A DNA stretch of 35,373 bases from Alistipes sp. (GTDB lineage Bacteria > Bacteroidota > Bacteroidia > Bacteroidales > Rikenellaceae), in NCBI GenBank assembly GCA_017630455.1, contig JAGBVG010000057.1, positions 1-35,373 on the forward strand. Reading direction: 5' to 3'. The notes beneath the pieces are model-generated. The model made no database searches. It had not been told where the DNA came from and saw nothing but the letters and a program-made list of their open reading frames with translations. Numbering within the stretch: position 1 is the stretch's first letter; each line of letters opens with the position of its first letter. The position numbers and the translations under genes were made by a program. Below, piece by piece: positions 11,083 through 22,863 of the stretch.

Positions 11083-11088
11083 CTACAG

Positions 11089-11172
11089 TACCCAGAGCCG
11101 GGGTCGAACCGGCACAGGGGTGAACCTACTGGTGTTTGAGACCAGCGCGTCTACCGATTCCGCCATCTGGGC
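11089..11172 (-). tRNA. tRNA-Leu (anticodon CAA)
   Basis: An 84-nt class II tRNA on the minus strand. The acceptor stem GCCCAGA pairs with TCTGGGT (the first pair is G-U) and A is the discriminator. The D-loop carries GGTAGACGC, the anticodon stem CTGGT/ACCAG encloses the loop CTCAAAC, and the T-arm has GGTTCGACC. The CCA end is not encoded. The anticodon reads UUG codons. Confidence 0.95.
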
Positions 11173-20400: not shown

Positions 20401-20410
20401 AATTTTGAGG

Positions 20411-20481
20411 TTGAGCTACCGAGATTCGAACTCAGAATAACAGAACCAAAATCTGCTGTGTTACCATTACACCATAGCTCA
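20411..20481 (-). tRNA. tRNA-Gln (anticodon UUG)
   Basis: A 71-nt tRNA on the minus strand. The acceptor stem TGAGCTA pairs with TAGCTCA, followed by discriminator A. The D-arm has TGGTGTAATGGTAACA, the anticodon stem GCAGA/TCTGT encloses the loop TTTTGGT, and the T-arm has GAGTTCGAATCTC. The CCA end is not encoded. Confidence 0.95.
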
Positions 20482-20570: not shown

Positions 20571-21473
20571 CTACTTTCTTCTTCTGCTTCGGAATTGACC
20601 CGGGGTGATGCCAGTATTCTTCTTGAATACACGTGTCAGGTGGTGTGGGTATTTGAAGCCGAGGTGGTAGGCTATCTGTCCGATACTCATAGTGGTATAG
20701 TCAAGCAGTCGCTTAGCCTCGCCGACGATGAAGTTCTGTATGTAGCTGTGTGCCGATATCTTTATGGTGTTGCGTACCACGTCGCCGAGGTAGTTTGCCG
20801 AGAGCCCCATCTCCGAGGCACACGACGCCACGGTGGGTATCTTCCTGCTGATGCTCGGCGGGGTGTTGATATATCTGTCGAGAATATTGTTCAGCGAGGA
20901 GATGATGTTCTGCGCGCTGTTGATAGGTTTCTGGATCTGACGCTCGTAGAAGCGCATACAGACGTTTAGCAGTACGGCAATGCCCGATGCCAAGATTTGT
21001 GACGAGTATTTATCCTGGGCGTTATTTATCTCCTCGTTGATGCTATTCATACAGTTGTATACCATATCTCGCTCGTCGCGTGATAGGCGTATGATGTTGT
21101 CGGTCGGGTTACTGAAGAATGGGTACTCGTCGATACGATTTTGGAGAAGTGTCTCGTGCAGCAGCTCCTTGTCAAAAGCCAAAATATACCCTTCGGGGTG
21201 ATGCGTTGCGCCACTTGAGTGTCTGCCGTAATATCCTGGTGCATAGAATGCTAATATGGCACGTCGTTCATCATCGGGGTTTGATGAAGCTTCGCAGTTT
21301 TCGTCCCAATAGCAAGCTATTGAGTGTATGCCGAATTGCTTAGGAATGTGATGGACAACCTCAATATTGTTAAGGTTGATGATACTCACTAAGGGATTTA
21401 ATGTTGTAGTACCAAAAAAGTTGTTAACATCCTCAATACTATCAAATCTTTCGAATGAATCATCTTGTACCAT
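20571..21473 (-). CDS. AraC family transcriptional regulator
   Basis: A 300-residue regulator with the C-terminal double helix-turn-helix of AraC/XylS proteins (about residues 205-298): the first HTH includes SEMGLSANYLGDVVRN, the second is IGQIAYHLGFKYPHHLTRVFKKNTGITPGQFR, which matches the family signature closely. The N-terminal 170 residues would form a cupin-like sensing domain of the type common in Bacteroidales regulators, with an unknown ligand. No clear target gene sits beside it: the next gene on its strand is tRNA-Gln, and upstream lie the candidate small RNA and a FlK-like thioesterase. An imperfect inverted repeat (ATACTTATTTG / CATAAGTAAAT) lies upstream of its start and may be an autoregulatory site. 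Confidence 0.93.
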   Translation of the reverse strand: MVQDDSFERFDSIEDVNNFFGTTTLNPLVSIINLNNIEVVHHIPKQFGIHSIACYWDENCEASSNPDDERRAILAFYAPGYYGRHSSGATHHPEGYILAFDKELLHETLLQNRIDEYPFFSNPTDNIIRLSRDERDMVYNCMNSINEEINNAQDKYSSQILASGIAVLLNVCMRFYERQIQKPINSAQNIISSLNNILDRYINTPPSISRKIPTVASCASEMGLSANYLGDVVRNTIKISAHSYIQNFIVGEAKRLLDYTTMSIGQIAYHLGFKYPHHLTRVFKKNTGITPGQFRSRRRK

Positions 21474-21499: not shown

Positions 21500-21573
21500 C
21501 TTATTTGAATAAAAGTGTCTGTGAAAAATATAACACATAAGTAAATTTGGTGTTTTTTTCAGTAAATTGTCTA

Positions 21574-21604
21574 TTGTGTGGAACGCCCAATCGCTCTACT
21601 TTTG
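21574..21604 (+). promoter_or_regulatory. Plus-strand promoter of the candidate small RNA
   Basis: TTG (21574-21576), a 20-nt spacer and TACTTTTG (21597-21604), an exact match to TAnnTTTG. It points away from the AraC gene and toward the 3' end of the FlK-like gene, so neither neighbour can use it for sense transcription. Confidence 0.65.
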
Positions 21605-21607
21605 CAG

Positions 21608-21709
21608 CGTGAATTTTTAGCCAGTGTGTTATATCCTTACAATCGGGTTGATGAGGCTTTCATTTGGGTAATGATTGTTTGGATTATGGGGGAGCACACT
21701 GGCTTTTTT
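21608..21709 (+). ncRNA. Candidate small RNA: rod-like hairpin with terminator
   Basis: A predicted transcript of about 100 nt folds into one long imperfect hairpin. The base stem is AGCCAGTGTG (21619-21628) with its exact inverse (21695-21704), followed by six T at 21704-21709. Further in, ATATCC (21631-21636) pairs with 21681-21687 with one bulge, ACAATC (21639-21644) pairs exactly with GATTGT (21673-21678), and GATGA (21650-21654) pairs with 21660-21664 around a 5-nt loop. A consensus promoter lies just upstream. Both flanking genes are on the other strand, so it cannot be their leader or terminator. No reading frame fits the interval. I do not recognise it as 4.5S, 6S, tmRNA or RNase P RNA. 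Possible roles are a trans-acting regulator or a protein-binding RNA. Confidence 0.6.
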
Positions 21710-21727
21710 GTATCCCTAAGTCAGCTG

Positions 21728-22099
21728 CTAAAGCTTGCTGAGAAACTTCTCACGATTCACAATAAAACGTATGTGCTCACCCTCGCCAATGAGAGTGTCG
21801 CCATCGTATGCCATAATCTTGAATGTGAGCTTTCTACCCTCTATAGCAGTGAGTTCGGCAATCGCGCTTATCGCAGCACCTACCTTCGATGGTTTGAGGT
21901 GAGATGTAGATATCATAGAGCCTACGGTGGTGTCACCCTCGTCGAGGTGTAGGGCAACAGCAAGCATCGCGGCGTTCTCCATCAGTGCCACCATTGCTGG
22001 AGTGGCAAGCACCGCCATATCGCCCGAACCTATAAACTCTGCGGTGTTACCATCCATAACGCGCATCACACTTTGGTGTTTTAGTCCTATCTCTAACAT
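21728..22099 (-). CDS. FlK-like hotdog thioesterase
   Basis: A 123-residue single-hotdog thioesterase of the fluoroacetyl-CoA thioesterase (FlK) type, found as short stand-alone proteins in many anaerobes. The active-site region is VLATPAMVALMENAAMLAV, containing the Thr and Glu of the Thr/Glu/His triad, followed by VGSMISTSHLKPSKVGAAI with the His. It would hydrolyse a small acyl-CoA in the cytoplasm; fluoroacetyl-CoA itself is unlikely to be the natural substrate here. It is monocistronic, with a -7 box at 22125-22132 and its stop 18 nt from the end of the convergent candidate small RNA. Confidence 0.88.
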   Translation of the reverse strand: MLEIGLKHQSVMRVMDGNTAEFIGSGDMAVLATPAMVALMENAAMLAVALHLDEGDTTVGSMISTSHLKPSKVGAAISAIAELTAIEGRKLTFKIMAYDGDTLIGEGEHIRFIVNREKFLSKL

Positions 22100-22132: not shown

Positions 22133-22257
22133 AAAATAAATTTTGAAAAAAATAATTTTCTGACACTAAAATCGTTATCTTTAGTAAGATATTATACGCT
22201 TATGGCAGTAAATGAATAATAATGGCGTCGGAAGCGATGAAATCTCAATGTTATTCG

Positions 22258-22265
22258 TATATTTG
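22258..22265 (+). promoter_or_regulatory. -7 box directly before the DUF4294 start
   Basis: TATATTTG ends 4 nt before the ATG at 22270. No -33 TTTG is seen. A second candidate, TATCTTTA at 22176-22183, would give a leader of about 85 nt instead. Confidence 0.4.
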
Positions 22266-22269
22266 TGGT

Positions 22270-22863
22270 ATGAAAAGTCTTAGCATCATACTCATTGTGG
22301 TATTAACCATAATCGCGGATGTTGGAGAGGTGGCAGCGCAACGTTACTTCCCCGTGCGTGGTGCGCGTAGCATTGAGTGGGGTGTCGATAGGAATGGCGA
22401 TTCGGTGCTCTATGTCAGGCTTCAGGAGGTGAGGATCTATCGCCGCAAACGCGACTTTAAGGAGTATCAGCGTATGGTGCGTGCTGTGAAGAAGGTCTAT
22501 CCGTTGGCTATCGAGGCGTCGAAGCGTATGGAGAATCTCGATGCGGAGCTTGCGAAGTTCGATACGCGCAAGGATAGGAAGGCTTACACCGAGGAGATTG
22601 AGAAGGCGTTGAAGGCGGAGATCTCGCCAGTGCTCTGGAAGATGACGCGCTACGAGGGAATGATTCTTCTGAAGCTTATCGACCGTGAGACTAACCATAC
22701 GGTTTTCAATATTATAAAGGATTTTCGTTCGGGGTTTACGGCGGGATTCTACCAGATGCTTGCCAAGCTCTTTGGCAATAACCTAAAACTCGAGTATGAC
22801 CCTGATGGCGAGGATGCGATTCTCGAGAAGATTGTAAAATACTACAACGCGGGATTGTTGTAG
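22270..22863 (+). CDS. DUF4294 exported protein
   Basis: A 197-residue protein of the Bacteroidota-specific DUF4294 family, function unknown. The frame is open to 22222, but the ATG at 22270 gives a normal signal peptide (MKSLSIILIVVLTIIADVGEVAAQ) and lies 4 nt after a -7 box. The family core runs from about residue 65: YPLAIEASKRMENLDAEL, a charged helical stretch around DTRKDRKAY, then the strongly conserved ILLKLIDRETNHTVFNIIKDFRSGFTAGFYQ and LFGNNLKLEYDPDGED. It is followed 56 nt downstream by dnaG, which has its own -7 box. Confidence 0.88.
   Translation: MKSLSIILIVVLTIIADVGEVAAQRYFPVRGARSIEWGVDRNGDSVLYVRLQEVRIYRRKRDFKEYQRMVRAVKKVYPLAIEASKRMENLDAELAKFDTRKDRKAYTEEIEKALKAEISPVLWKMTRYEGMILLKLIDRETNHTVFNIIKDFRSGFTAGFYQMLAKLFGNNLKLEYDPDGEDAILEKIVKYYNAGLL

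Follow-up and report, generated by a model that had tools for sequence, protein, structure and literature searches.

Comparative evidence for an unlisted small RNA family in Alistipes, encoded divergently from a probable AraC-family regulator

The comparison of 27 loci indicates that an unlisted family of small RNAs (sRNAs) is real in the genus Alistipes, and that it probably has a dedicated regulator of the AraC family. The member described here occupies positions 21541-21709 of the window (the whole stretch of 35,373 nucleotides that was analysed, one contig of a 2.0-Mb genome), and this element is almost certainly a small-RNA gene of an Alistipes-like genome, as judged from its conservation in relatives. 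As a whole, the account that we consider fairly probable is that of a stand-alone sRNA with a dedicated AraC activator, acting in trans via its apical loop. Within this account, control of the sRNA by the divergently encoded AraC protein is very likely, and base-pairing through the apical loop is slightly favored.

The locus, the fold and its distribution

The sequence-only reading had proposed an independent sRNA gene with its own promoter, a rod-like fold and a terminator, and the compensatory change and synteny found in relatives support this proposal. On the plus strand, the rod is preceded by TTG-N20-TACTTTTG and a 15-nt stretch, and it lies between the gene of a 300-aa AraC-family regulator (20571-21473, minus strand, divergent from the sRNA; Pfam HTH_18, E 2.4e-18) and that of a FlK-like hotdog thioesterase (21728-22099, minus strand, convergent with the sRNA; Pfam FlK, E 4.6e-34). 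The promoter is as had been described, with TTG at 21574-21576, a gap of 20 nt, and TACTTTTG at 21597-21604 as a -7 element of the Bacteroides sigma-ABfr type (TAnnTTTG); the first arm of the stem was also correctly placed within 15 nt of TACTTTTG, and starts at 21620. Upstream, on the same strand, are two putative operator repeats, namely repeat 1 (GTAAATTTGGT, 21541-21551) and repeat 2 (GTAAATTGTCTATTG, 21562-21576), which stands exactly 21 bp past repeat 1 and whose 3′ end is the -33 TTG.

We infer that the gene is transcribed into a plus-strand RNA of ~100 nt (21609-21711, with a predicted 5′ end), which would form one long hairpin that serves as its own terminator. From the base upwards, this hairpin consists of helix P1 (5′ arm, 21620-21629), helix P2 (5′ arm, 21633-21644), the apical loop (21645-21672), the 3′ arm of P2 (21673-21684), an asymmetric internal loop (21685-21693) that contains GGGGGA (21688-21693), and the 3′ arm of P1 with the T run (21694-21709), where the base of the rod doubles as an intrinsic terminator. 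The second arm (21694-21703) runs directly into six T (21704-21709), as claimed. The basal stem had been called a perfect stem of 10 bp, and this description holds when the stem is counted from A21619 (10 Watson-Crick pairs), but counted from G21620 it has nine pairs plus a G-U. The 6-bp ACAATC/GATTGT helix was found at 21639-21644/21673-21678, and the further pairing announced outside it is present in the outer TCC/GGA part. The small apical hairpin of 5 bp was without support from covariation, with 0 compensatory changes and 8 mismatching cells out of 108, and it was omitted from the models.

The inferred transcript has a folding energy of -33.3 kcal/mol and a z-score of -4.13, which was equalled by 0 of 200 shuffles, and four homologues (L060, L062, L068 and L151) gave z-scores of -4.1 to -4.8. 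The full 136-nt interval of the earlier reading was only mildly better than its shuffles (z -1.8, equalled by 12 of 200). We regard the covariation over the 27 loci as decisive for a real fold. In the 27-row alignment, 99.3% of the cells of P1 (10 pairs) and 92.6% of those of P2 (12 pairs) were paired, and both sides had changed in 8 of the 10 pairs and in 11 of the 12 pairs, respectively. Cells with double changes numbered 134 in these 27 distinct sequences; shuffles had 35, with none of 500 reaching the observed number, and slid controls had 12-30. This alignment had been fitted to the covariance model and thus leans to structure. When 11 sequences were aligned by MAFFT on sequence only, there were 31 double-change cells against 12 (0 of 500 reached), and 89.1% of the cells were paired against 31-40% in the slid versions; further pair types were not in excess over shuffles in this alignment of 11 sequences (461 of 500 reached). 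The covariance model R2 retained 21 of the 22 pairs. The 3′ end is T-rich in 27 of 27 rows, with 3 to 6 T across the last six columns, so that compensatory change and an intrinsic terminator, by which we judge a sRNA structure, are both found in the 27 rows. Conservation of the paired arms in syntenic relatives had been suggested as a check, and in the 27 loci the arms are indeed kept through compensatory change. Both the gene and its fold are, in our judgment, established by this comparison.

The distribution of the RNA was analyzed with the loop and with the fold. A 19-nt stretch of the loop, allowing two mismatches at most, was found in 21 of 180 genomes of the same genus, against 2 of 180 for the reversed-pattern control. 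The covariance model, built from eight of these 21 genomes, matched 27 of the 180 genomes at E <=1e-5, with one match each; two more matches in the genus (E 0.65 and 0.92) were treated as chance. Among 250 genomes of the family there were 25 matches, all in this genus, plus one weak match of 36 nt (E 0.003), and among 295 genomes of the order the window alone was a strong match, with four weak ones (E 0.003-0.07). A contig scan with the loop pattern gave 19 loci from named genomes, 18 being Alistipes or Rikenellaceae MAGs, of which 16 carry a ruminant label. The archaeal contig L040, in which the loop stretch alone scored (17.9 bits), was dropped as a chance match. The earlier statement that the element resembles no standard RNA stands, since Rfam 15 at the gathering threshold matched only two tRNAs in the whole window and no family at the sRNA; in a permissive Rfam scan of 331 bases, the one match was to a snoRNA, which scored 15.6 bits where the threshold is 64, and it ended 5′ of the RNA. 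The window carries genes for tRNA-Gln (TTG; 20409-20481, just 3′ of the AraC gene) and tRNA-Leu (CAA; 11088-11172), both on the minus strand and both ordinary.

The apical loop and its candidate partners

Loop and helices are conserved in different ways, so that in the loop the sequence is fixed, whereas in the helices the sequence is free and the pairing is kept, a contrast that is in favor of an action in trans. In the near-invariant core of the loop (21651-21670, ATGAGGCTTTCATTTGGGTA), our candidate functional site, 11 of the 20 positions do not vary among the 27 rows, six are identical in 25 or 26 rows, one in 24 rows, and two (21653 and 21655) in 21 rows, so that 18 of the 20 are conserved in at least 24 rows. 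The GGGG located 3′ of the apical loop is present in all 27 sequences, and the complete GGGGGA in 25 of them. The sRNA would present two elements, the loop ATGAGGCTTTCATTTGGGTA and the purine internal loop GGGGGA, of which the apical loop would most likely pair with one or a few mRNAs. This pairing in trans might occur at start codons, and the complement of the loop contains the start-codon context CCCAAATGAAAGC. GibS of Bacteroides pairs with translation initiation regions, according to the accessible part of PMC11697453.

Complements of the loop of 11, 12 and 14 nt were used to scan the sRNA genomes, the 11-mer being searched in 25 of the 27 and the 12-mer in 10 of the 27. With one mismatch at most, ACCCAAATGAAAGC had 6 non-self matches in 27 genomes and its reversed control 8; for CCAAATGAAAGC, in 10 genomes, the numbers were 32 and 55. 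Exact matches to CCAAATGAAAG were more frequent than in the control (28 non-self matches in 25 genomes against 8), and 22 of these 28 belong to one multicopy palindromic repeat. No conserved target gene with 11-14 nt of complementarity to the loop was found among all 28 matches of the 11-mer and the 22 of 32 matches of the 12-mer that were read. The match at L184 (G176) falls at the beginning of an ORF of 337 codons, and this gene was not common to any other compared match. The matches at L169, L236 and L249, which are antisense and have a common sequence context opposite long ORFs, were rejected as mRNA sites. It is possible that the target has a short or gapped seed, or that the partner is a protein or a ligand.

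The palindromic repeat itself is an intergenic element of ~120 bp with the ends AATTTCTTGTCA...ACAAGAAATT and interchangeable stems, and part of it is complementary to the sRNA loop over 11 nt. It was observed in relatives at L163-L168, L170-L178, L180-L182 and L187-L190, with several copies in some genomes and sometimes beside variants; within the window's own genome the 11-mer matches no copy. Its appearance is that of a MITE or a terminator-like mobile element.

A diverged locus, L151 of genome G038, was identified through its AraC protein (197.8 bits on the N-domain profile described below), and its sRNA was missed by the covariance model. At this syntenic locus, repeat 1 stands exactly 56 bp from a TACTTTTG and TCTATT is kept; the second GTAA is absent. 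The RNA has a P1 of 12 bp (GTGCCGATATAC/GTATATCGGCAC, 1484-1569 of that locus) and a P2 formed by ATTCTGC/GCAGAAT, and folds at z -4.6. Both flanks of the loop (GGTTAATG and TATT) and the GGGGGA are kept, and the interior of the loop has been replaced, as would be expected of a swappable targeting segment.

These observations also bear on a different role for the RNA, in which it would bind a protein or a small molecule through the apical and GGGGGA loops, as a sponge, a mimic or a sensor, and would not bind mRNAs. The presence of ~20 near-invariant nt in one loop together with a distant conserved purine loop, the length of the invariant run, which exceeds that of a usual seed, and the three complementarity searches (11-14 nt) that yielded no conserved target are all in favor of such a partner; however, the replacement of the loop interior in L151, with scaffold and GGGGGA kept, would be odd for a ligand pocket. 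We consider protein or ligand binding unlikely.

The operator and the divergent AraC gene

In order to describe the operator, the 27 loci were anchored on the -7 box and compared without gaps. As observed in 27 of 27 loci, the GTAA of repeat 1 stands 56 bp, and repeat 2 stands 35 bp, 5′ of the -7 box, with 21 bp between the repeats. Repeat 1 has the consensus GTAAwATTGGT, its GTAA and GGT being invariant in 27 of 27 loci; repeat 2 starts with GTAA in 24 loci, GTTA in 2 and GTAG in 1, and the -33 position is TTG in 22 loci and TTT in 5. The -7 element fits TAnnTTTG in 27 of 27 loci, which on sequence grounds points to a promoter of the sRNA's own. Mean pairwise identity was 0.89 in repeat 1, 0.95 in the GTAA and 0.89 in the TCTATTG of repeat 2, and 0.90 in the -7 element, against 0.47 between the repeats; the 17-nt spacer, at 0.30, is at the background level of the far-upstream segment (0.29). 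The element went undetected in a generic sigma-70/terminator scan; its promoter is of the Bacteroides type and its terminator has a long loop. In AraC/XylS activators (araI, Pm), as here, two direct repeats stand two helical turns apart, and the proximal one touches the -35 region. By the accessible text of PMC7366714, TAnnTTTG at -7 and TTTG near -33 make up the consensus of the Bacteroides primary sigma factor.

We infer that the AraC protein binds the two direct repeats located 21 bp apart and activates the sRNA promoter. Since repeat 2 runs into the -33 element, we propose that the bound AraC would recruit RNA polymerase, with the AraC ligand switching the sRNA on. Apart from those at the sRNA promoters, the operator pattern had 23 matches (reversed control, 17), and its genome-wide specificity is partly circular, the pattern having been derived from the same 27 loci. 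In 23 of the 27 sRNA genomes the sRNA promoter is its sole match, and G131, G145, G041 and G170 have one extra match each; the one of these four that was read, in G041, falls within an ORF. In L070 and L071, an extended 5′ leader upstream of the rod has TTACTTAATAGCAAGT in common, and L069, L072, L073, L076 and L077 also have longer leaders, with differing sequences.

An AraC homologue is divergent from the sRNA in 27 of 27 loci, the matched region beginning 131-196 bp 5′ of P1. The AraC neighbour in the window has the C-terminal AraC-type HTH (Pfam HTH_18, residues 219-297; HTH_AraC, residues 261-295). With a profile of the N-domain, the 27 sRNA neighbours scored 210.7-274.1 bits, against 201.5 bits at most for all others in the 180 genomes; the profile was trained on 17 of the 27, and the 10 held out scored 210.7-261.6 bits. 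The sRNA is distributed in one clade, and therefore the co-occurrence of AraC and sRNA is not phylogenetically independent. The AraC neighbour, whose part had been overlooked in the sequence-only reading, is not incidental to the sRNA: both genes are together in 27 of 27 loci, the FlK side is rearranged in two loci, and an AraC-like operator stands on the sRNA promoter. We take the operator geometry and the AraC linkage to be established by the comparison of loci.

The two repeats are also upstream of the AraC gene, so that they might serve only the autoregulation of AraC, or might serve another regulator, with AraC not driving the sRNA. Repeat 2, however, enters the -33 box of the sRNA at a fixed distance of 35 bp from the -7 box, and several homologous AraC genes elsewhere in the genus have similar repeats beside their own start, which makes this explanation improbable. 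Such a GTAA...GGT-21-GT(A/C)A-like site, with two mismatches at most, was found near the AraC start in the sRNA-less loci L149, L152, L153, L157, L158, L160, L143 and L145. The AraC of L149 (41% identity with a clade member) faces an operon for an aldo/keto reductase and CMD that has repeats of the same kind in front, and it is the only AraC homologue that Pfam showed facing an aldo/keto reductase operon. That of L145 faces a phosphoesterase and then a cupin/CMD-like protein that scored under the cut-off for CMD. The AraC gene of L143 has an EamA transporter gene beside it, encoded on its own strand. In L142, L148 and L150 the pattern stands ahead of operons for CMD or alpha/beta-hydrolase, and the fetched 4 kb or less contained no AraC. 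The pattern had no match near the AraC homologues of L155, L156, L159, L161 and L162, and in L154 the ORF search found no AraC. The sites in L142, L148, L149, L150, L152, L153 and others suggest an operator shared by an AraC subfamily across the genus.

Of the 26 loci that extend as far as the FlK-like gene, 24 have it next to the sRNA (the contig of L078 ends before FlK). FlK and DUF4294 have been inverted in L074 and L075 without any disruption of the AraC-sRNA pair; hence, the FlK-like gene is not needed for the pair. In the window, the DUF4294 gene (22222-22863, plus strand) is directly ahead of the dnaG primase gene. We then analyzed FlK in 30 further genomes (29 sRNA-less genomes and G038), and found it in 29 of them. 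Without G038, these are 28 sRNA-less FlK loci, in which neither an AraC match nor an operator was detected in the fetched flank, the contigs of L203 and L214 ending less than 500 nt away on the AraC side; DUF4294 neighbours FlK in 20 of the 28. The identity of FlK to that of the window is 74-98% in the other sRNA loci that extend to it and 85% in G038, against 66% at most in the remaining genomes, and therefore the AraC-sRNA pair marks one clade and is an addition at this place.

The end of the RNA near the FlK-like gene could also be read as a cis element, i.e., an antisense RNA or a terminator for the FlK-like or the AraC gene with no role in trans. As had been noted, 18 nt lie between the T run and the stop codon of FlK, and FlK is the usual neighbour. 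Against a role confined to cis, a conserved promoter and operator belonging to the RNA itself are present in 27 of 27 loci, it is intact in L074 and L075, where FlK has moved off, there is no minus-strand T run after the stem in the window, and its most conserved part is a loop; this reading is thus highly improbable. That the RNA is a short mRNA is hardly credible: a 6-codon ORF, ATGAGGCTTTCATTTGGGTAA, exists in the window, but the start codon is missing in 6 of 27 rows, the stop is lost in rows with GGGTAT (e.g., L056), conservation extends over all codon positions, and this ORF was rejected.

Known systems and the meaning of the pair

In enterobacteria, the transcription factor gene is divergent from the sRNA that it controls in the SgrR-SgrS, OxyR-OxyS and GcvA-GcvB systems, in which the regulators are of other families than here and the sRNAs SgrS, OxyS and GcvB use Hfq. 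A similar arrangement involves Rsp of Staphylococcus aureus, a regulator of the AraC/XylS family (PMC7241556, accessible part), which is divergent from the SSR42 non-coding RNA and is called a primary activator of it (PMC12153306, accessible part). Both cases have an AraC-family regulator divergent from a non-coding RNA. They differ, by description only, in that SSR42 belongs to another phylum and is said, in the accessible part of PMC12153306, to exceed all other non-coding RNAs of its cell in length, whereas the RNA described here is a rod hairpin of ~100 nt. As far as our searches can say, neither the RNA nor its setting in Bacteroidota has been described before, and the divergent regulator-sRNA arrangement is already known in kind, from Rsp-SSR42. 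No report of an AraC-paired sRNA in Bacteroidota was found among the matches listed in the literature search, the coverage of which excludes bioRxiv preprints and most subscription papers.

Within Bacteroidota, GibS and FopS of Bacteroides thetaiotaomicron are, like the present RNA, sRNAs with a terminator hairpin, and FopS is transcribed from canonical sigma-ABfr promoters (accessible part of PMC11697453). By the family description given there, FopS has its seed in a single-stranded 5′ stretch that is followed by the terminator hairpin, whereas here the leader is short and the conserved segment is the apical loop, within the long rod of the terminator. Membership of the FopS family was rejected by comparison with that description, no single-stranded 5′ seed stretch being found. 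FopS also has 14 paralogues in that account, in contrast to one match per genome here.

Enzymes are the output of another AraC-family activator that is divergent from its target, YqhC of E. coli, which activates an aldehyde reductase and an aldo-keto reductase (PMC5297802, accessible part), whereas the divergent output here is an RNA; that both systems respond to a common signal is only a guess, as is an electrophile or redox signal for the AraC protein, by analogy with YqhC. It may be speculated, with a low probability, that an AraC sensor, some relatives of which apparently control redox or detoxification enzymes, swapped an enzyme operon for an RNA with a rod scaffold, a replaceable loop (one swap, in G038) and a GGGGGA that docks an RNA-binding protein, in bacteria that have no obvious Hfq; the outcome would be a switch made of one regulator and one RNA. 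If true, this would be a lineage of AraC regulators that changed its output from enzymes to RNA.

Bacteroides is without an obvious Hfq homologue, and how the sRNAs of Bacteroidota act without obvious Hfq or ProQ is an open question, in the accessible text of PMC7366714. Among the matches listed, the literature on Bacteroidota sRNAs deals mostly with Bacteroides thetaiotaomicron. In the present family, covariation has proved the fold, the operator is fixed and there is a candidate for a dedicated regulator, so that both halves of the circuit are directly testable, and the conserved fold, promoter and regulator gene, taken together, suggest a sensor protein that switches on an RNA.
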